Assembly (NCBI GenBank): GCA_902524285.1 | Contig: CABZCR010000009.1 | Span: forward strand, 1-32,189 | Length of the DNA stretch: 32,189 bases | Origin: an uncultured Pelagibacteraceae bacterium | GTDB lineage: Bacteria > Pseudomonadota > Alphaproteobacteria > Pelagibacterales > AG-422-B15 | Direction of reading: 5' to 3' | Part shown: positions 10,667 through 20,656 of the stretch, one piece after another | Layout of the letters: the number at the start of each line of letters is the position of its first letter | Position numbering within the stretch: position 1 is the first letter of the stretch | Notes under the pieces: generated by a model | What the model was told of the DNA's origin: nothing | Databases searched by the model: none | Seen by the model: the letters and a program-made list of their open reading frames with translations, nothing else | Translations under genes and position numbers: made by a program

Positions 10667-11635
10667 ATGTCAAATTTAAGAAAAGTTCTGATCGGAATAA
10701 GAGATAGTAAACTGTCTATCGCTCAAACGAATTTTTTTCTAAAAGAAGCAAATAAAATAAATGAAATAAAGAATTCATTTTCGTTTGAAATTAAGACAAT
10801 AAAAACAAAAGGAGATATTCATAATAATCATCGTCTTGACCAATTGGGAGGCAAGGGATTATTTGTCAAGGAGATTGAAGAACAAATTCTTTCTGGAGAC
10901 ATTGATATTGGCATTCACAGTCTTAAAGATTTACCAGCTGTGGAAAACTCTCCAAGTTTAGAAATCGGTTGTTGGCTAAAGAGGTATGATGCGCGCGATG
11001 CTTTAATATCAAATAATGGGCAAGGAATTGGTGAACTTGAGCCTAACTCTGTTATAGGAACTAGCTCTATTAGACGAAGATCACAAATATTAAATTTTAG
11101 AAAAGATCTAAAGATAAAGCTGTTGAGAGGAAATGTGGATACTCGATTGCAAAAGTTAAAAGATAATGAATATGACGCAATCATATTAAGTTTAGCAGGG
11201 CTGCAAAGAATAAACGCAGAACATCTTGTGACCGAAGTATTATCTTTTGACTATTTTTTGCCAGCCTCCTGTCAAGGCGCTGTAAGCTTACAGGTAAAAA
11301 AAAATAATAATTTAGATCTAATCTTTTCAAAACTTAACCACAGTGAAACACAAATCGCATGTACTGCTGAAAGAGAAATTTTAAAAACAATCAACGCAAA
11401 TTGCAACAGTCCTGTCTCTGTTTATGCACATATAAATAAAGAAGAGATTAATATCGATTGTACTTTATACAATCATGAGGGTGATATGATTTTTAAAACA
11501 AAAAAAACGAATTATAAAAAGGATTTTATAAAATCAAGTCATGAAATCGGAAACGAAATTATCAGAGCTGTTGGTCAAAATACAATAAATGAATTAGATG
11601 AATTAAAAAATGATTTTGATTACTCGCCCATCTGA
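10667..11635 (+). CDS. hemC: Porphobilinogen deaminase (hydroxymethylbilane synthase)
   Basis: HemC condenses four porphobilinogens into hydroxymethylbilane in heme biosynthesis. The 322-residue protein has the catalytic aspartate D88 in HSLKDLPA, the basic GTSSIRRRSQ motif at 131-140, the LRGNVDTRLQKL motif near 153-164, and LPASCQGAV near 198-206. The cysteine that carries the dipyrromethane cofactor is C246 in NANCNSPV, close to the expected place. The ATG at 10667 begins immediately before the conserved IGIRDSKL stretch. The 3' end overlaps hemD by 26 bases, so the two consecutive pathway enzymes are coupled. The hemX/mitofilin-like gene that often follows hemD in alphaproteobacteria is not present. 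Confidence 0.97.
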   Translation: MSNLRKVLIGIRDSKLSIAQTNFFLKEANKINEIKNSFSFEIKTIKTKGDIHNNHRLDQLGGKGLFVKEIEEQILSGDIDIGIHSLKDLPAVENSPSLEIGCWLKRYDARDALISNNGQGIGELEPNSVIGTSSIRRRSQILNFRKDLKIKLLRGNVDTRLQKLKDNEYDAIILSLAGLQRINAEHLVTEVLSFDYFLPASCQGAVSLQVKKNNNLDLIFSKLNHSETQIACTAEREILKTINANCNSPVSVYAHINKEEINIDCTLYNHEGDMIFKTKKTNYKKDFIKSSHEIGNEIIRAVGQNTINELDELKNDFDYSPI

Positions 11636-12341
11636 GGAAGCGCAAATTCTTGCAAAAGAATTTACAAAGCTCAATCTGAATACCGTTATGGATCCTTTGA
11701 TCTCCTTTAAATCAACTTATAAAAATATAAAATTCAAAGAGAACAATTATTATTTGGTTTCAAGCCTACAAGCAGTTAAATCATTATTAAAATATCAAAA
11801 TCAATACAGTGATATTTTAACTGAAGGTCGTTTCTTAGTTATTGGAAAAAAAGTCCGAAATGAACTCGAAAAAAATAATAATATAAGAATAAAAAAAACC
11901 GCTGAAAACAGTGATGAGATGTATGATTATCTAATTAAAAATAAATTGTTATTTAAAAGTAAATTTAATCTAACTTATCTCTCGGGTTCAATCACAAACA
12001 ATGATTTTCTAAGAGCACTTAAGCACAAAAAAATTTCTGTGAAGAGAGTAATCATATATAAAGTCATACCCACAAAGAAACTGAAAAGAAAGACAGTAAG
12101 CTTGCTGAGACAAAATAAAATTAAACAAATTGTTTTGTTCTCAAGTTACACCGCGCAGACTTTGATCAAACTGTTAAGTTCAGAAAAGCTAAAAAAAAAA
12201 GTATCAAAAATCCAAGTATTTTCATTAAGTGACCGTATTGACAAATATGTTAAAAAAAGTCGTTTTTTTGAGAAGACATTTGTATCAGCCAAGCCGAACC
12301 AAAAGTCATTAATAAAAGAACTGACATCAAAAAAACAATAA
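11610..12341 (+). CDS. hemD: Uroporphyrinogen-III synthase
   Basis: HemD closes hydroxymethylbilane with inversion of ring D to give uroporphyrinogen III. This 243-residue protein is divergent, as is usual for the family, but the pattern fits: ILITRPSEEA at the N terminus, a YLSGSITN stretch near residues 124-131, RVIIYKVIP near 145-153, and an LFSSYTAQTLIKLL helix near 177-190. Position directly after hemC with a 26-base overlap makes the assignment firm. The protein is very rich in lysine, in line with the AT-rich genome. A 14-base AT palindrome (12335-12348) covers its stop codon but has no GC core or T-run, so I do not call it a terminator. Confidence 0.9.
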   Translation: MILITRPSEEAQILAKEFTKLNLNTVMDPLISFKSTYKNIKFKENNYYLVSSLQAVKSLLKYQNQYSDILTEGRFLVIGKKVRNELEKNNNIRIKKTAENSDEMYDYLIKNKLLFKSKFNLTYLSGSITNNDFLRALKHKKISVKRVIIYKVIPTKKLKRKTVSLLRQNKIKQIVLFSSYTAQTLIKLLSSEKLKKKVSKIQVFSLSDRIDKYVKKSRFFEKTFVSAKPNQKSLIKELTSKKQ

Positions 12342-12560: not shown

Positions 12561-15554
12561 ATGAGACCAAATATAATTAAGACAAGTTTGTCTTCAGCTT
12601 TAATTTATGCACTTACTTTTTTTGGAAGTGCTTATGCTGCTGACATTAACACTCCAGGTTTTACTGGAACTGCAAACCATACAGTAACTTCTGGTTTCAG
12701 CATTAGGTCCGCAGACTATGACTGCAATCTTTATACTGGATATACTTTTACTGACACAAGAATTACAACTGGTTTAGCATCTGTTACAAGAGGTAACGGA
12801 GAAGGTTGTGGTTTTAATCAAGGCAATATTCCATATTGGACAGATATTTACGGTAACACCGCAACAAAGTATAACAACTATCAAGGGTCAAACCCGAACA
12901 ATGACGATGGTAGTTTAAACTTTGGTCCTGGCGATATCTTCAGTGCAAAACAAAAAATATTTGGATCTATATCTGGAACAACATCTCAAGGTCTCGGTGT
13001 TGAACTTTCTTATAGTGCTGCATACAACCCAGCGTTGAACATCAATTCCCCTGCTTTTAAAAAGCTAACATCAGACGCTGAGGATGCATTTGAACAAGAC
13101 TTCGCAATTTATGATGCTTATGTAACAGGATCATTTGACTCACCTAATGGAAACTTTGTTGATTATCAAATCGGTCGATTTGCAACAAGCTGGGGTGAAG
13201 CTACTTTCATACCTGTTGGAGCTAATGGATTGGTAACAAACGCCCTTGATACTTCTAAGATCAGAGGTCCGGGTGCATCCATTCGTGAAGCGTTGATGCC
13301 AACTGAGCAAATAACTGTTTCAACTGACCTTGATGGTATTTCCCTAGAAGCATATTATCAAATTGGTGCAGAAACAGTACAAGTTGATCCTTCAGGTTCT
13401 TACTTTGGAGCTGATTTCATCGGTGAAGGTTCAGGAAGCCTTTATGCTGGTGGAGCATATGATTATGAAATTGCAGGTGGAAGCACATGTAACTTATCTA
13501 CTCAAACAGGTGTAACTTGTGATGCAACATCACTTGCAGCTTCTAGATCAAATACAACTGGAATACTAAATCAATTAGATAACGCTTACACTGAGATCCT
13601 CGATAATGCGACTGGTTTAACATTAGCAAGTAGTCAATTTGCCATCACTACGTTCGGTAGTGAAGCTGGTAACCAGGGTCTTGGATCAGACTTAGAGGAT
13701 AACGTAGTTCTAACTGCTGGAAATGCTACTCTGGGTATTGCTGCAGGCACTAATGCAACCGCTTCTACTCAAACGGGAGCTGGATCTGAAGTTTTCTATA
13801 CAGCTGGAGCAGCTGGATTCTTAGATAGTTTAACAACGCTATCGGGGTTAACTGCTTATTCTGCAAATCAACGTGCTGGTGTAGAAATTTTACCAGATGC
13901 ACAAAAACATGTTTATGCAGATGACGGTGGCGAATGGGGTATTCGTCTAGGTACATATCTAGATGATGTTGGTACCGGCGTTGATTTAAGTTTCTATTAT
14001 GCAAATTATCACAGTAAAGCTCCTTATGTGAGAATTAAGGGAATGAAAAATATGTTTGCTGGCGACTACTATGCTTTAATGCGTGCAACAGTTACAGACC
14101 ATTTCGGATTTTATGACGCTGGTCCTCTATCCGCACTTGCTGGTAGTTTAGAATCAAACGGTGGTGATACATTATATACTGCAATTAAAGATGTAGCATA
14201 TGGTTCAACAATTTGTTCAGCTGTGTTTGGTGGAACAGCTGGTGTAACATCTATGCAGACGTTAACTGGTGACTCAACGATCACTAAGCTTACTATCACT
14301 GATCAGCATAAGGCATTGTACATGGACAGAACTTTTGGAACCTCAATTGATGGTGAAAAAGCTCTTGTTCATAACTCTGCTGTTTGTAACGCTACTGCAA
14401 ACGGAGCAGACGCTCTTTCAGGAGGTGGTAATGGAACATTAAATGATACAAACTTCGCATTGGAACTTACTGGAGTCGGTGTCCTAGCTGCAATTACTCC
14501 ATTGAATCAGGCAACGTATCAATTTATTTACCCTGAGGACAATCAAATCTTTGGTGCTAGCTTTAGTACAAACGTTGGATCCACAACTGTACAGGGTGAA
14601 GTTTCTTACAGACCTGACTTCCCACTTGCAACACCGGCTTCAAGTCAGATCAACCAGATTGCTGACGCGAGTGGTGCAACGCAAATGTTGAACTGGGTTG
14701 CTTTCACTGGATTGAACGCTCTGGGTTCGAATACGAATACAGGTCTAACCGGTAGCGGAACATCAGCTGCTAAAGCAGCTGAAGACGGAGTTCAAGCTCT
14801 ACTTTTTGCAACGGTAGCAGGTACAAATGCTGTTGGAGGTACTAATGCATATTCAAATGCAGTAAGAGATTTTAAACGTTCTTCATTACCTGCTATTTCT
14901 CAAGACACAGTTAAAGCTGGCGATTACTATAGTACCCCATTCATCGAATATGACGTTTTATCGATTGATGTTGGAACTACTACATCATTCACAGCATCTG
15001 ATCCAGTCACGGTAAGCCTTGGTGCCGACTCTGCTGCAATAGTTACTGAGTTAGCAATGGTTCAAATCCAAGACCTTGATAACAGCAAGGGTTACGTCAA
15101 CAGAGGAGGTTACTCTGCTGGTGGAGACGCACCTGCAAAATGCATGGGTGCAGTTGGAACTAATATGGCTCCAGCATCCGGGGCTTCTGTTTCAAACCTT
15201 GGTGCTTCGATCCATGACGGACTATTTGGTAATGGTGGATATTGTGAAAATCAGCCAGGTGCTGATGAGAGATCTTTTTCATACAGAATAGTTGGTACTG
15301 CAACTTATAATAACTTCAACAACACTCGTTGGGCATTAAGTCCTAACTTTGCATTTGCTCATGATCCTAGAGGCTATGGACCATCATCTCTTGGAGGTTT
15401 CGTAGAGGATAAAATGTCTCTGTCTTTAGGTGTTAACGCTACATCTGGTGGAACATCATTGGGTTTAAGCTATGTTAACTACATGGGTGACGAGAGAGTT
15501 GGAAGTGGAACAGATAAAGATTACATTACTGCATCTGTTTCGCACTCATTTTAA
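12561..15554 (+). CDS. Very large DUF1302-family outer-membrane beta-barrel protein
   Basis: This 997-residue protein begins with a signal peptide (residues 1-26, cleavage after SAYA) and ends in a phenylalanine preceded by alternating residues, as expected of an outer-membrane barrel inserted by BAM. Family hallmarks are in order: an IGRFATSWGEATFIPVG block near residues 202-218, GPGASIREALMPTEQ near 236-250, YYANYHSKAP near 480, a YPEDNQIFGASF block near 659-670, GEVSYRPDFPL near 680, and the C-terminal AFAHDPRGYGP block near 930. Members are usually about 550-700 residues; the excess is in Gly/Ala/Thr/Ser-rich insertions, mainly about residues 280-450 and 540-640. The ATG at 12561 has a strong AAGGGG site eight bases upstream. 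DUF1329 follows after 17 bases. The transported compound is unknown. Confidence 0.9.
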   Translation: MRPNIIKTSLSSALIYALTFFGSAYAADINTPGFTGTANHTVTSGFSIRSADYDCNLYTGYTFTDTRITTGLASVTRGNGEGCGFNQGNIPYWTDIYGNTATKYNNYQGSNPNNDDGSLNFGPGDIFSAKQKIFGSISGTTSQGLGVELSYSAAYNPALNINSPAFKKLTSDAEDAFEQDFAIYDAYVTGSFDSPNGNFVDYQIGRFATSWGEATFIPVGANGLVTNALDTSKIRGPGASIREALMPTEQITVSTDLDGISLEAYYQIGAETVQVDPSGSYFGADFIGEGSGSLYAGGAYDYEIAGGSTCNLSTQTGVTCDATSLAASRSNTTGILNQLDNAYTEILDNATGLTLASSQFAITTFGSEAGNQGLGSDLEDNVVLTAGNATLGIAAGTNATASTQTGAGSEVFYTAGAAGFLDSLTTLSGLTAYSANQRAGVEILPDAQKHVYADDGGEWGIRLGTYLDDVGTGVDLSFYYANYHSKAPYVRIKGMKNMFAGDYYALMRATVTDHFGFYDAGPLSALAGSLESNGGDTLYTAIKDVAYGSTICSAVFGGTAGVTSMQTLTGDSTITKLTITDQHKALYMDRTFGTSIDGEKALVHNSAVCNATANGADALSGGGNGTLNDTNFALELTGVGVLAAITPLNQATYQFIYPEDNQIFGASFSTNVGSTTVQGEVSYRPDFPLATPASSQINQIADASGATQMLNWVAFTGLNALGSNTNTGLTGSGTSAAKAAEDGVQALLFATVAGTNAVGGTNAYSNAVRDFKRSSLPAISQDTVKAGDYYSTPFIEYDVLSIDVGTTTSFTASDPVTVSLGADSAAIVTELAMVQIQDLDNSKGYVNRGGYSAGGDAPAKCMGAVGTNMAPASGASVSNLGASIHDGLFGNGGYCENQPGADERSFSYRIVGTATYNNFNNTRWALSPNFAFAHDPRGYGPSSLGGFVEDKMSLSLGVNATSGGTSLGLSYVNYMGDERVGSGTDKDYITASVSHSF

Positions 15555-15571: not shown

Positions 15572-16789
15572 ATGAATAATACGAATATAAAAAATCTAAT
15601 TATATCTGTTGTTGTAGCTTTAGGCTTTACAGTAACTACGTCTGTTGCTGACGGGCATAAGTACACAGTGGATAGTTCAAACTATACTGAATATACAGAT
15701 ATGTTGTCACCGGGGCAGATTACAATGTTTTCTGCTTATCCAGACACATATAAAATTCATGTGTATGACAACAGTGGTGCATGTCAGGTACCGCCAGAGA
15801 TAATGTCCATCTCTCAAACTAATGGTACACTGATAAATGATAACGAAGGTTTTGAAGTTGCTAATATGGGTCAAATTCCTTTCCCAAACCCATCAGAAGC
15901 TCAACACTTTATTTGGAACATGAGATTGAATTCAAGTTTAGTATCATCAGTTTTCCGTGTTGCAACATCAACAAATGTGCAAGCTGATGGGTCTATAATT
16001 GTTGGTCAGCAAGAAACAAATATCGTATTCCCGCGTAATCCGAATACGGTTTCACAGTATGCCGATAAAAACATCTATGCGATGTTTATGCAGAAAAACT
16101 TGGGCCCACCAAGATCAGCAGGAACGACAACACTAGTGCATGACTTTATTGACAGTTATGTTCAGCCGCGTAAAGCATGGCAGTATAACCCTGCTACAAG
16201 ACGTGTGAGAAGAGCGCCTGATATCACTTATGATACAGTTCTTTTAGCTGGTGGTGGTATTGTTGTTGTTGACCAGTATGGTGGTTTTAATGGAGCTCAA
16301 GACAAGTACGATTGGACCTATGAAGGTAAGAAAATGATGATCGTGCCTGCAGCCAACGAAGCGCTTGCGGAGAATGCAATCGAGACAACTCACTCACAAT
16401 ATCATTTAAATCCTGATTATGTTCGTTATGAAGAAAGAGACGTTCACGTTGTTCATGCACAACTTAAGCCTGGACAAAGACATCTTTACGCATCACGAAC
16501 ATTCTACATAATGGACGATGATTTCTACAATCTGTCTATTATGGATGCTTATGATGATAATCAAGAACTCATGAGACACCAAATTGGAACAATGGTTAGA
16601 GGTATTGAAGGAACAGAAGCTGATGAGTGCAATATTCAAGGTGAGTTTACTTTTGACTTTGCAACAAGAACATACACTGGTAACAACCAACTAGGTACTG
16701 GTTTCAGTACAGTTCCAACTGTCTATAACGGTGAGGAAAAACCTGCAAGCTTCTTTACTCCTGATGGATTGAGAAGATACGCTAGGTAA
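15572..16789 (+). CDS. DUF1329-family periplasmic protein
   Basis: This 405-residue protein has a signal peptide (residues 1-26, ending SVA) and is probably periplasmic; no lipobox cysteine is seen. The central and C-terminal parts carry the DUF1329 signature: RKAWQYNPATRRVRRAPD near residues 201-218, FNGAQDKYDWTYEGKKMMIVP near 235-255, YVRYEERDVHVVHAQLK near 287-303, and a YIMDDDFYNLSIMDAYD block. DUF1329 is described as related in fold to LolA/LolB, proteins that carry lipids or lipoproteins in a hydrophobic cavity; that link is family knowledge and is not visible in this sequence alone. A strong AGGAAAGG site at 15557-15564 precedes the ATG. It is co-transcribed with the DUF1302 gene, and a terminator follows at 16819-16851, so the pair may form a closed bicistronic unit. 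Confidence 0.92.
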   Translation: MNNTNIKNLIISVVVALGFTVTTSVADGHKYTVDSSNYTEYTDMLSPGQITMFSAYPDTYKIHVYDNSGACQVPPEIMSISQTNGTLINDNEGFEVANMGQIPFPNPSEAQHFIWNMRLNSSLVSSVFRVATSTNVQADGSIIVGQQETNIVFPRNPNTVSQYADKNIYAMFMQKNLGPPRSAGTTTLVHDFIDSYVQPRKAWQYNPATRRVRRAPDITYDTVLLAGGGIVVVDQYGGFNGAQDKYDWTYEGKKMMIVPAANEALAENAIETTHSQYHLNPDYVRYEERDVHVVHAQLKPGQRHLYASRTFYIMDDDFYNLSIMDAYDDNQELMRHQIGTMVRGIEGTEADECNIQGEFTFDFATRTYTGNNQLGTGFSTVPTVYNGEEKPASFFTPDGLRRYAR

Positions 16790-16818: not shown

Positions 16819-16851
16819 AAAACCCGACTTGAAAATTTTAGGTCGGGTTTT
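16819..16851 (+). terminator. Rho-independent terminator after the DUF1329 gene
   Basis: AAAACCCGAC at 16819-16828 pairs perfectly with GTCGGGTTTT at 16842-16851, giving a 10-base stem with a GC core and a 13-base loop, followed by a T-rich tail. It is the only convincing intrinsic terminator I found in the window. The symmetric A and T flanks could let it work on either strand, but the downstream gene is also on the + strand. Confidence 0.85.
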
Positions 16852-16867
16852 AATTTTAGTATGGTCT

Positions 16868-17998
16868 ATGAAAACTAAATTTATAATCATAATTTTTAAT
16901 TTGTTGCTATTAACAAATTTAGGTTTTTCTTCACAATTCAATTTTGGAACCGAATTCGCTGCAATATCTCCGAATGCACACAAAGCCTTGATTAATGCAT
17001 TGGAGAAATCTGGAGATAGAATATTCGGCGTTGGTGTGCATGGAATAATTGTTTATTCAGACGATGAAGGAGAAACTTGGACTCAAGCTGAAGAAGTGCC
17101 TTTTACGAAAACATTAACTGACATAAGTTGTCCGACCCAAATTAAATGTTGGGCTACAGGTCATGACGCTACTATTCTGCATTCAAGTGACTCTGGTAAA
17201 ACTTGGCAAATTCAGTACCAAGATGTTGAATTTGACGCTCCATTCCTGTCGATTCATATGTATGATGATAACGAAGGTGTTGCCATAGGTGCGTTTGCAT
17301 TATCACTTAGAACTTCAAACGGAGGCAACAGTTGGGATTATTTGTTTATTGACGATGATGAATTTCAACCTCACCTGAATTATACCTATGGTGACAACCA
17401 GGCTTGGAGAAAGTCAGCTGAAAATGAAGGTTATGCTGTTGGAGAGCTTGGTAAATATTATGTTACAGATGACCGCGGGTTGAATTGGCTGGCAATTGAA
17501 ACTGGTTATCTTGGCTCTTATTGGTCTGGTATTAAAGTTGACGATGGACAATCATTATTATTAGGAATGTCTGGAAATATTACGTTAGCCACCCTCTACG
17601 AGTTAAATGAGACTGTTCCTCCTGAAAAAGCTACAGCAATAGCATGTTATGAATCAGGATACTATCGTGGTGACTGCAAAGTTTATGCTTTTGACGATCT
17701 GTTTATAGGAACAAAAAATAGTTTAACTAATGCTAGTTTATTAGATGATGGACGAATTGTCTTAAGTGGAAATGGTGGCGTTATTAGTGTTATTGATATG
17801 GTCAGAGAAAAAAACATTAAAACATGTGTTCGTTCAGATCGACTGAGTAATACATCTGTTATTCCATTAAGTATTGATAATTTTTTAATTGCAGGTGAAA
17901 ACGGCATGCGCAAGCATAGTATGGAACAATGTTATAAAAACTTTGTATCAGAAGATTCAACTTCTCAAGATGCCTTTTACGAAATCAGTATCAATTAA
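16868..17998 (+). CDS. YCF48/BNR-type beta-propeller, exported
   Basis: This protein of 376 residues has a signal peptide (residues 1-20, a run of isoleucine, leucine and phenylalanine ending GFSS) and a repeated beta-propeller. Repeats of the YCF48 type are visible as GVHGIIVYSDDEGETW, HDATILHSSDSGKTW, FALSLRTSNGGNSW and GELGKYYVTDDRGLNW, spaced 40-70 residues apart. YCF48 itself is a photosystem II assembly factor, but bacterial relatives occur beside DUF1302/DUF1329 genes with no link to photosynthesis. I chose the ATG at 16868, because a longer reading from a TTG at 16829 would start inside the terminator loop and put charged residues before the signal peptide. The stop overlaps the next ATG as TAATG. 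Role inferred as an accessory of the envelope module. Confidence 0.87.
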   Translation: MKTKFIIIIFNLLLLTNLGFSSQFNFGTEFAAISPNAHKALINALEKSGDRIFGVGVHGIIVYSDDEGETWTQAEEVPFTKTLTDISCPTQIKCWATGHDATILHSSDSGKTWQIQYQDVEFDAPFLSIHMYDDNEGVAIGAFALSLRTSNGGNSWDYLFIDDDEFQPHLNYTYGDNQAWRKSAENEGYAVGELGKYYVTDDRGLNWLAIETGYLGSYWSGIKVDDGQSLLLGMSGNITLATLYELNETVPPEKATAIACYESGYYRGDCKVYAFDDLFIGTKNSLTNASLLDDGRIVLSGNGGVISVIDMVREKNIKTCVRSDRLSNTSVIPLSIDNFLIAGENGMRKHSMEQCYKNFVSEDSTSQDAFYEISIN

Positions 17999-18768
17999 TG
18001 TCGCGTGTAGAAGGTAAAGTCGCAATCATTACAGGAGCGGCATCAGGATTAGGTTACGCAGCTGCAGAGAAATTGATGAGTGAAGGTGCTAAAGTAATGC
18101 TTTCCGATATCAATAAAGATGTGTTAGATACCATGCCTGAAAGATTAAAAAATTTTAGTCAAACTCAATTTAGTACATTTGTTCATGATGTGACAAACGA
18201 GGAAGCGTGGATTGAACTCATTGAAAAAACAGAAAATGAATTTGGTAAGATTAATATTCTTATAAATAGTGCGGGAATATCTCTTGGTGCAGATATTGTT
18301 TCAACTGAATTTGATGTGTGGAAAAAAGTTCACCAAGTAAACTTAGACAGTGTTTTTCTTGGTTGCAAGTATGCAATTCCAAAAATGAGTAAGTCAGGTC
18401 AGGGCTCTATAATCAATATTTCATCAATTTCTGGAATTGTTGCAGGATGGAATACCGCTGCCTATAATTCCTCAAAAGCTGGTGTTCGATTACTCAGCAA
18501 ATCTGTTGCATTATACTGTGCAAAAAAAGGATATGATGTTCGATGCAATTCAGTTCACCCTGCATTTGTTAATACGCCAATACTTGACCCTATAAAACAG
18601 GCTTTTGGAGCAGAAGAGGCAGTCGCCAAGCTTGCACGTCAAATACCAATGAACAAAATTGGTGATACAGATGATGTTTCTTATGCAATTTTATATTTAG
18701 CGTCTGATGAGTCAAAGTTTATGACAGGAACAGAAATTGTTCTTGATGGCGGTCTCAGCGCAATGTAA
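17998..18768 (+). CDS. Short-chain dehydrogenase/reductase, NAD-preferring
   Basis: This 256-residue classical SDR has the cofactor motif TGAASGLG at residues 12-19 and D37 at the end of the second strand, which favours NAD(H) over NADP(H). NSAG is at 90-93, N115 is present, and the catalytic S143, Y156 and K160 are complete. The length and C terminus (TGTEIVLDGG) are typical of FabG-like enzymes and of hydroxysteroid or cyclic-alcohol dehydrogenases; the substrate cannot be told from sequence. It overlaps the YCF48 stop by one base (TAATG), so it is translationally coupled to the envelope module. That suggests it may oxidise or reduce the compound the module handles, which is inference. Confidence 0.93.
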   Translation: MSRVEGKVAIITGAASGLGYAAAEKLMSEGAKVMLSDINKDVLDTMPERLKNFSQTQFSTFVHDVTNEEAWIELIEKTENEFGKINILINSAGISLGADIVSTEFDVWKKVHQVNLDSVFLGCKYAIPKMSKSGQGSIINISSISGIVAGWNTAAYNSSKAGVRLLSKSVALYCAKKGYDVRCNSVHPAFVNTPILDPIKQAFGAEEAVAKLARQIPMNKIGDTDDVSYAILYLASDESKFMTGTEIVLDGGLSAM

Positions 18769-18784
18769 CTTCGTTCCTGTAACG

Positions 18785-19480
18785 ATGAAGTCAAAAAAAG
18801 CATTAATGATTGTTCACCAGCCTCGATCGAGCACAGGTGACGTTGGGTTAAAACTGCGAGATAGAGGTTATGAATTGGATGTTCGACGTCCAGTCATTGG
18901 TGAAAAATTACCTAACTCAATGAATGACCATGATGTTGCAGTGATTTATGGTGGACCGCCAAGTGCCAATGATAATTTAGATTATATCAAACTTGAAATC
19001 GATTGGATTACAGTTGCCTTAGAATCTAAAAAACCTTTGCTTGGCATATGCCTTGGAGCCCAGATGCTTGCAAAAAATTTAGGTGGAACTGTCCAGCGAG
19101 CTAAGGATCAACAATTTGAAATTGGATTTTATGATTTACAACCAACAGGAGATGGTCATAAAATATTTCAAAATCAAAAAACATTTTTTCAATGGCATAA
19201 AGAGGGCTTTAAGGTAACAAAAGACTGTGATGTTCTTGCTTACGGCGAAACTTTTCCGCAACAAGCATTTAAGTATAAAAATGCAGTGGGTATTCAATTT
19301 CACCCTGAGGTGAATCTTAAAATGCATTTGCGATGGCTGTATTATGCGGGCTACATGTTAAGAGAAAAAGGTGCTCAAAAACGTCAATATCAAATGGATC
19401 AAAGACTTAGTCATGGTAAAAAAATTAATATGTGGTTAGACTCATTTTTAGATAATTATTTTCTTATAGATAAATCATGA
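18785..19480 (+). CDS. Class I glutamine amidotransferase (GATase1) protein
   Basis: This stand-alone GATase1 protein of 231 residues resembles the glutaminase half of GMP synthase and YP_-type predicted amidotransferases. The nucleophile C89 lies in GICLGAQ and the other triad residues are H174 and E176 in QFHPEV, so it should be able to hydrolyse glutamine or a gamma-glutamyl bond. The acceptor is unknown. I start it at the ATG at 18785, 16 bases after the SDR stop; an upstream TTG at 18737 in the same frame would add 16 residues that overlap the SDR gene and do not look like the family N terminus. It overlaps the YggT gene by ATGA, so it is part of the same run. Confidence 0.9.
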   Translation: MKSKKALMIVHQPRSSTGDVGLKLRDRGYELDVRRPVIGEKLPNSMNDHDVAVIYGGPPSANDNLDYIKLEIDWITVALESKKPLLGICLGAQMLAKNLGGTVQRAKDQQFEIGFYDLQPTGDGHKIFQNQKTFFQWHKEGFKVTKDCDVLAYGETFPQQAFKYKNAVGIQFHPEVNLKMHLRWLYYAGYMLREKGAQKRQYQMDQRLSHGKKINMWLDSFLDNYFLIDKS

Positions 19481-19771: not shown

Positions 19772-20656
19772 ATGTCTGATGCAAAAATTATTGATGGAAA
19801 AGTAATTGCGGCTGATCTTAGAGCTGAAACAGCTATCAAAGTTGAAGATTTTAAAAATAAATTTAATAAAACCCCGACCCTTGCAGTTGTACTTGTTGGT
19901 GAAGATCCAGCCAGTCAGGTTTATGTAAATACAAAGTCTAAAATGGCAAAAGAGATAGGAATGGATGTTGAGGATCATTTTCTGGATACCACTGTATCCG
20001 AAGAAAAGCTCTTGGAATTAATCGAGAAACTTAATAATGATCAAAAAGTAAATGGAATTCTTGTTCAATTGCCACTTCCATCACATATTGATTCAAGAGT
20101 TATTATTGATGCAATTGATCCAGTAAAAGATGCCGACGGTTTTCATGCAATAAATGTTGGCAGAAATTCAATAGGAGGTGACTTACTAAGTAAAACTTTT
20201 ACTCCTTGCACACCTCTCGGGTGCTACTTAATGTTGAAAAAAAGTATTTCTGATTTGAAAGGTATGCATGCTGTAATTATTGGACGATCTAATATTGTCG
20301 GCAAACCGATGGCGCAACTACTCCTTGAAGAATCATGTACTGTTACGATCGTTCATTCTAAAACTAGAAATATTGAAGAAATTACTAAACAGGCTGATAT
20401 TGTTGTTGCTGCAGTTGGGCGTCCTTTAATGGTTAAAAAAGATTGGATTAAAGAAGGAGCTGTCGTGATTGATGTTGGTATTAATCGAGTAGACCATCCA
20501 GATAAACCTGGCAAAACAAAACTTGTTGGAGATGTTGATTACGATGATGTATTCAGTCATGTGTCAGCAATTACACCTGTCCCAGGTGGTGTGGGTCCTA
20601 TGACAATTGCATGTTTATTAAAAAATACGGTAGATGCTGCTTTTAGACAGCAATAG
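19772..20656 (+). CDS. folD: Methylenetetrahydrofolate dehydrogenase/cyclohydrolase
   Basis: FolD interconverts 5,10-methylene-THF and 10-formyl-THF, providing the formyl donor used by PurH and for initiator tRNA. The 294-residue protein has the catalytic pair Y51 and K55 in YVNTKSK, the QLPLPSHID motif near residue 103, [10 protein letters not shown] near 126-135, the Rossmann motif GRSNIVGKP near 171, and the C-terminal [10 protein letters not shown] block. Length is normal. It is the last gene of the + strand run from the DUF1302 gene or from the YCF48 gene, and converges with argG with only one base between the stops. No terminator is visible at that junction. Confidence 0.97.

Follow-up and report, generated by a model that had tools for sequence, protein, structure and literature searches.

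Gene content of the DUF1302 locus

The window analysed here is a stretch of 32,189 nt, contig C9 of the draft genome G000 (0.96 Mb, 69% complete), whose lineage is probably a family of SAR11-type bacteria (Pelagibacterales). In all counts, family and order are group codes of the genome collection, and we infer the names of both. The central genes of the window are hemC and hemD, a DUF1302 gene, the genes of a DUF1329 protein and a YCF48 protein, two syntenic neighbours and folD (Table 1). The 997-aa DUF1302 protein claimed by the sequence-only reading is real: PF06980 matched it from end to end (residues 9-997, profile positions 3-541 of 541), with 308.3 bits against a gathering score of 23.2. 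The YCF48 protein of the window was 26-33% identical to the YCF48 proteins of plasmid DUF1302 cassettes.

Table 1. Positions of the genes and of the predicted DUF1302 outer loops in the window
Feature	Position	Strand	Remarks
hemC	10667..11635	+	Within divergent block
hemD	11610..12341	+	Within divergent block
DUF1302 protein, putative outer-membrane barrel (AmeA-like)	12561..15554	+	997 aa; PF06980, E 1.7e-91; 18 strand-like segments
Predicted outer loop after strand 1, residues 51-128	12711..12944	+	Insert ~61-106; C55/C83
Predicted outer loop after strand 7, residues 273-456	13377..13928	+	Insert ~301-440; C310/C320
Predicted outer loop after strand 9, residues 489-652	14025..14516	+	Insert ~503-640; C552/C609
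Predicted outer loop after strand 11, residues 687-794	14619..14942	+	Insert ~703-780; no Cys in this protein
Predicted outer loop after strand 13, residues 839-905	15075..15275	+	Insert ~843-900; C861/C895
DUF1329 protein, putative periplasmic LolA-like (AmeB-like)	15572..16789	+	PF07044, E 4.4e-88
YCF48/BNR protein (AmeC-like)	16829..17998	+	PF14870, E 7.9e-15
SDR oxidoreductase	17998..18768	+	Syntenic neighbour
Class-I glutamine amidotransferase (GAT)	18737..19480	+	Syntenic neighbour
folD	19772..20656	+	Conserved right flank

DUF1302 occupied the slot between hemD and DUF1329 in all six relatives that were compared gene by gene (L084, L085, L091, L036, L096, and L097). In the sister family, whose neighbourhood was read in four genomes, the DUF1302 cluster was absent. 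There, folD followed directly after hemD in G057, a 364-aa gene separated hemD and folD in two of the four genomes, and G053 was without hemC-hemD at the corresponding place. This comparison indicates that the cluster was either inserted into or lost from a single slot. The slot gene of G054 (L151:7553-8644), the one of the two scanned with Pfam, is MscS-like; G062 has a slot gene of the same size. In another genome, DUF1302 is spread over two open frames of 425 and 563 aa (L080, G006:C67:23581-26392), either a disrupted gene or an assembly error.

The extra length of the DUF1302 protein is a lineage trait

The length of the protein had been read as an unusual insertion, and this part of the reading did not survive the comparison with close relatives, which are equally long. 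The 40 complete homologs in the family measured 878-1144 aa, which rules out a genome-specific insertion, and the extra length is a trait of the lineage. The 25 DUF1302 proteins aligned at class level ranged from 581 to 1306 aa; several of them, of 841-931 aa, and the one of 1306 aa also had enlarged loops, which means that the trait is not confined to the family. The alignment omitted loci whose place was represented already (L001, L084, L035, L036, L085, L069, L067, L068, and L070), L059, which has the score and length of L058 but lies in another genome (G521), fragmentary genes at the ends of contigs, and L080, which is split. Among the class proteins, L039, L064, and L065 were missing from the phmmer list and L062 was cut.

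Alignment against the 12 short class proteins (<720 aa) resolved the extra length into five inserts (Table 1). Over these inserts, the short proteins filled on average 0-55% of the positions in 20-residue blocks, against 78-100% in most blocks of the core. The two largest inserts lie close to the regions named from the sequence alone (residues about 280-450 and 540-640), and three further inserts had been missed. The reported richness in Gly, Ala, Thr, Ser, and Asn and the scarcity of charged residues were borne out by measurement: G+A+T+S+N made up 0.58 of the inserts and 0.44 of the core, and D+E+K+R+H 0.12 and 0.17, respectively. The term low complexity was an overstatement. Only three twelve-residue windows had an entropy of 2.2 bits or less, starting at residues 722-724 and thus outside both named regions, which rules out simple low complexity.

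The inserts are most likely disulfide-pinned outer loops

To place the inserts in the protein, strands were sought by an amphipathicity scan of the alignment, and their boundaries were then set by eye. There were 18 amphipathic strand-like segments, the last closing with the C-terminal Phe, as would be expected of an 18-strand barrel fold. Within the family, the inner turns were nearly constant at 2-11 aa. All five inserts follow odd-numbered strands (1, 7, 9, 11, and 13) and share the parity of the loop preceding the C-terminal strand. In known outer-membrane barrels, the N and C ends are both periplasmic. Taken together with the parity of the inserts, this would place the insert-bearing loops on the outer side, and the five long loops are predicted to be exposed at the cell surface. 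The earlier suggestion of long extracellular loops thus finds support in the parity, the short inner turns and the confinement of cysteines described below. The topology rests on the alignment because AlphaFold, given the protein aligned with L035 and L036 only, returned an unusable model (pLDDT 26, pTM 0.18). A PDB sequence search with the protein found no relative up to E 1.

The several cysteines that had been noticed number eight, seven of them inside the inserts as bounded here and all eight in outer loops. Between 39 and 41 of the 41 family members conserve each of the pairs C55/C83, C310/C320, C552/C609, and C861/C895, and the loop after strand 11 carried a cysteine pair in 21 of the 41. 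Every cysteine-bearing outer loop contained an even number of cysteines, in 184/184 cases in the family (41 proteins) and 57/57 in the class (25 proteins), in a count that leaves aside the cysteines N-terminal of strand 1 (5 in the family, 14 in the class). The strands and inner turns of the same 41 and 25 proteins contained none. When cysteines were placed at random, weighted by length, the all-even pattern arose in 1.7-15% of the draws per protein; it was observed in all 12 lineage representatives and in all 19 cysteine-bearing class proteins. From one protein to another, the cysteine numbers of the loops differ by whole pairs. The even counts are most simply read as an intraloop disulfide in every cysteine-bearing loop, by which four of the five long outer loops of the protein would each be pinned. 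The inserts, which occur lineage-wide, are most likely disulfide-pinned outer loops, and the cysteine rule provides a simple, testable description of large outer loops in DUF1302 barrels. A DUF1302 protein at the cell surface is also known from Pseudomonas aeruginosa, where PA3923 is reported to bind laminin (PMC6890786); this is a 69.6 kDa protein of a pathogen, likened here by family and surface location alone.

An Ame-like system with an unlinked RND pump

The adjacent genes for DUF1302, DUF1329, and YCF48 follow the order of ameABC. In Castellaniella defragrans, AmeABCD is described as a DUF1302 protein, a DUF1329 protein, a COG4447/YCF48 protein and an HAE3 RND protein (PMC6394551). A candidate for the fourth part lies on another contig of the G000 genome (L093, G000:C2:90092-92773) and encodes an RND protein of 894 aa. 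Two stretches of it share 44-60% identity with the RND that a P. aeruginosa plasmid carries in a DUF1329/DUF1302/YCF48 cassette, and its identity to the RND of the plasmid cassette of Pseudomonas sp. MPC6 was 36-42%, whereas the other two RNDs sampled gave weak partial matches to the plasmid cassette RND (about 17-30%). Its best NCBIfam match was the HAE3 model TIGR00921 (E 7e-57), at 192.9 bits and below the cut-off of 351.9. We regard this protein as AmeD-like, judging by its similarity to plasmid-cassette RNDs and not to AmeD itself. It has roughly 80-100 extra residues around positions 590-705 compared with the plasmid cassette pumps.

Since the RND gene on C2 lies outside the DUF1302 cassette on C9, the system is likened to AmeABCD in its working and is not classed as a canonical cassette. 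It agrees with AmeABCD, as described, in the A-B-C gene order, the protein families and an HAE3-like RND partner in the genome, and differs from it in that the RND is unlinked and that AmeA has 605 aa compared with 997 aa here (PMC6394551). The DUF1302 protein here also differs in its large loops with cysteine pairs, and no monoterpene link is known for it. A DUF1302/DUF1329 pair apart from its efflux transporter is likewise reported for Pseudomonas putida (PP_0765/PP_0766 with PP_2018/PP_2019), but there the periplasmic PP_2018 is numbered beside the transporter, while here YCF48 remains with DUF1302 (PMC10866462). By this analogy, DUF1302 would be the outer-membrane barrel (AmeA type) of an RND system that handles lipids or other hydrophobes, and the system as a whole may serve hydrophobe transport.

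DUF1302 occurred in 46 of the 53 family genomes (G000 included) and in none of 244 others of the order. For the remaining parts, the counts were 50/53 for DUF1329, with one weak match among 94 other genomes, 46/53 for YCF48 and 47/53 for the AmeD-like RND, both with 0/94. The DUF1302 system thus marks the family and is essentially absent elsewhere in the order. Most family genomes also carry a second DUF1329 gene of about 430 aa away from DUF1302, similar to that of G042 (L090:8590-9864), whose neighbours include N-formylglutamate amidohydrolase and alanine dehydrogenase-like genes. A further RND (783 aa) on G000:C3 (L094:5301-9641) stands beside a LolA-like protein of 272 aa and another protein, of 404 aa, without a family match; this gene group is possibly a second lipid-handling system.

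Divergence peaks at DUF1302 and the hem genes

The neighbourhood was compared in 37 family genomes besides G000, with one genome per species for comparisons at species scale. Close pairs were defined by at least 95% identity in folD and at least 94% in p20658, which gave 117 genome pairs. In these pairs, the median identity of DUF1302 was 37%, and 107 of 117 were below 60%. The upstream genes were divergent as well, with medians of 27% for hemD (95 close pairs) and 59% for hemC (103 close pairs). DUF1329 reached 85% and YCF48 84%; the remaining genes of the comparison lay at 88-98%, most of the flanking ones above 90%. In the 160 kb surrounding the locus, 207 reciprocal best pairs linked G037 with G016 at a median identity of 96.4%, and among these hemD ranked first, DUF1302 second and hemC 15th in divergence. 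DUF1302 was the most divergent of 87 genes between G026 and G037, and between G026 and G016 hemD ranked first and DUF1302 second of 94.

The sequence-only reading had proposed to see whether the insertions vary between close strains. Between species, variation is strong, but it extends to the barrel itself and takes the form of allelic replacement. Within the nearest allele group, core identity was 0.78-0.87 and insert identity 0.58-0.71, the exposed loops being more variable than the barrel. For G022, dS was 1.16 in the DUF1302 core and 1.84 in hemC, against 0.46 in folD and 0.53 in p20658, indicating that the alleles are old and that their divergence is more than rapid change of the protein sequence. 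In comparisons with the nearest alleles (NG86), dN/dS was about 0.15-0.22 in the loops and about 0.06-0.08 in the core, that is, net purifying with no sign of recent positive selection in the loops.

Within the same 160 kb, a second hyperdivergent block separates G037 and G016 at G037:C1:401735-411202 (L178-L179), where nine genes show 39-67% identity on a 96% background. It includes a Porin_4 outer-membrane protein, an L,D-transpeptidase, a TPR-sulfotransferase, a weak LptE-like match and leucyl-tRNA synthetase, and may be another barrel-centred exchange block.

DUF1302 alleles are exchanged across clades

The backbone genes divided 34 genomes into clade A (20) and clade B (14), with SH-aLRT values of 100 and 95; G009 was omitted from the clade and AU-test trees because it had too few backbone genes. 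The fewest changes of the A/B label rose along the locus from 2 for p9496 to 6 for hemC, 7 for hemD, and 12 for DUF1302, and fell again to 4 for DUF1329, 3 for YCF48, and 2 for SDR. One change each was needed for acs, folD, and p20658, low counts that are partly circular since the clades were defined on these genes and p8090. The independent controls p8508, GAT, and the unlinked RND (a tree of 20 relatives and G000; 17 A, 4 B) also required a single change. For the DUF1302 tree, 85% of shuffled labels gave 12 changes or fewer, indicating that this tree has no memory of the clades. The AU test on the DUF1302 tree, which was built with a quick method and has two long branches flagged, rejected clade A as a unit (p 5e-102).

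The nearest DUF1302 belonged to the genome's own clade in 18 of 35 genomes, compared with 33 of 34 for folD. The DUF1302 of G000 was 46-48% identical to those of G049 and G050 from another genus and 43% identical to that of the clade-A genome G026, whose folD is 97% identical to the G000 folD. Conversely, L036 of G027 (clade A) and L035 of G042 (clade B) shared an allele type at 72% identity. Exchange crosses species and genera, and the gene content of the locus stays fixed. DUF1302 looks like an allelic-exchange hotspot, a stronger finding than the inserts, and hemC-hemD are apparently dragged along with it.

Discussion

The reading we prefer, at a probability of roughly 0.55, is that DUF1302 is a surface barrel whose whole alleles are exchanged between species, with rare types favoured through recognition of the loops by phages or grazers. 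Homologous recombination in the conserved flanking genes would import whole DUF1302 alleles between species and genera, and these would drag along hemC-hemD and, to a lesser degree, DUF1329-YCF48. Phages (or grazers) recognising the exposed loops would favour rare types by frequency-dependent selection; ancient allele types would thereby be retained, while the periplasmic and inner-membrane partners would stay more conserved. Recognition by phages or predators is our best inference for the role of the loops. In viral contigs scanned with the protein, there were three pattern matches, none of them a relative. Two findings speak against this explanation: divergence extends to the barrel core, where recognition of the loops would not by itself have to produce it, and dN/dS in the loops is well under 1. 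For the scrambled hemC and hemD to be hitch-hikers, breakpoints would often have to fall upstream of both, and hemD may be fast-evolving on its own account.

Comparable patterns are known. In Klebsiella pneumoniae, OmpK36 backbones are reported to be scattered by recombination, with phage susceptibility varying with the backbone (PMC12421954). The recombination-scattered barrel alleles and phages as the proposed driver resemble the present case, but OmpK36 is a porin within one species, while here exchange crosses species and genera in an RND-linked family (PMC12421954). The hypervariable regions HVR1-4 of SAR11 share with our locus a surface-related variability in a conserved genome; HVR2 is described as varying in gene content (LPS genes), whereas here gene content is fixed and barrel alleles are swapped (PMC2217521).

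The main rival, which we consider unlikely, is that the system handles different hydrophobic molecules according to niche and the exchanged barrel sets the specificity. The core of the G000 protein does diverge along with its loops (37-61% identity outside its own allele group), and related systems are reported to serve monoterpene tolerance (PMC6394551) and growth on Tween 20 (PMC10866462). However, pumps of clade A are 87-97% identical to one another, DUF1329 and YCF48 largely track the clade lines, and the greatest divergence lies in the outer loops. A lower probability still falls to a neutral origin, in which an intrinsic recombination hotspot or relaxed constraint produced diversity that is not selected. 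The low dN/dS of the loops and the involvement of hemC and hemD agree with it, but the tree is scrambled beyond what relaxed constraint alone would give, as the AU test shows, the raised dS in the block marks the alleles as old, and the exchange peaks at a surface gene.

Most genomes compared are incomplete drafts, G000 among them, so foreign alleles assembled or binned into a variable block were considered too. Such an artefact is very unlikely, given that the locus lies with unchanged gene order inside long contigs (660 kb in G037, 376 kb in G016, and 410 kb in G042) and that L036 and L035 match across the clades at 72% while G026 and G000 within clade A reach only 43%. The least credible alternative is hidden paralogy, that is, several ancestral DUF1302 copies with differential loss. 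G047 does have a second, unlinked DUF1302 of 1158 aa with other neighbours outside the hemD-folD slot (L066, G047:C9:31149-34550), but nearly all genomes have a single copy, and the slot between hemD and DUF1329 was constant in the relatives compared gene by gene.

Allelic exchange of a surface barrel under recognition by phages or grazers would suit what is reported for these bacteria. Marine SAR11 are described as having among the highest recombination-to-mutation ratios recorded, and variability selection on phage receptor proteins has already been proposed as the cause of this recombination (PMC4053759). O-chain clusters of Pelagibacterales are reported to be mainly vertical, with arms races likelier at single genes (PMC11898729). 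In the literature collection searched, no paper turned up that links DUF1302 with SAR11. The DUF1302 locus offers a named candidate gene for the proposed selection on phage receptors, with a measured exchange that peaks on DUF1302. More tentatively, and with doubts outweighing confidence, DUF1302 could serve phages as their main protein receptor (or grazers as their target) throughout the SAR11 family, maintained as a trans-species polymorphism with alleles that are older than the species and pass between hosts by recombination, irrespective of the host tree. If this is true, swapping of a single barrel gene would give these cells a fast-changing surface, while the transport machinery behind it would be far more conserved.
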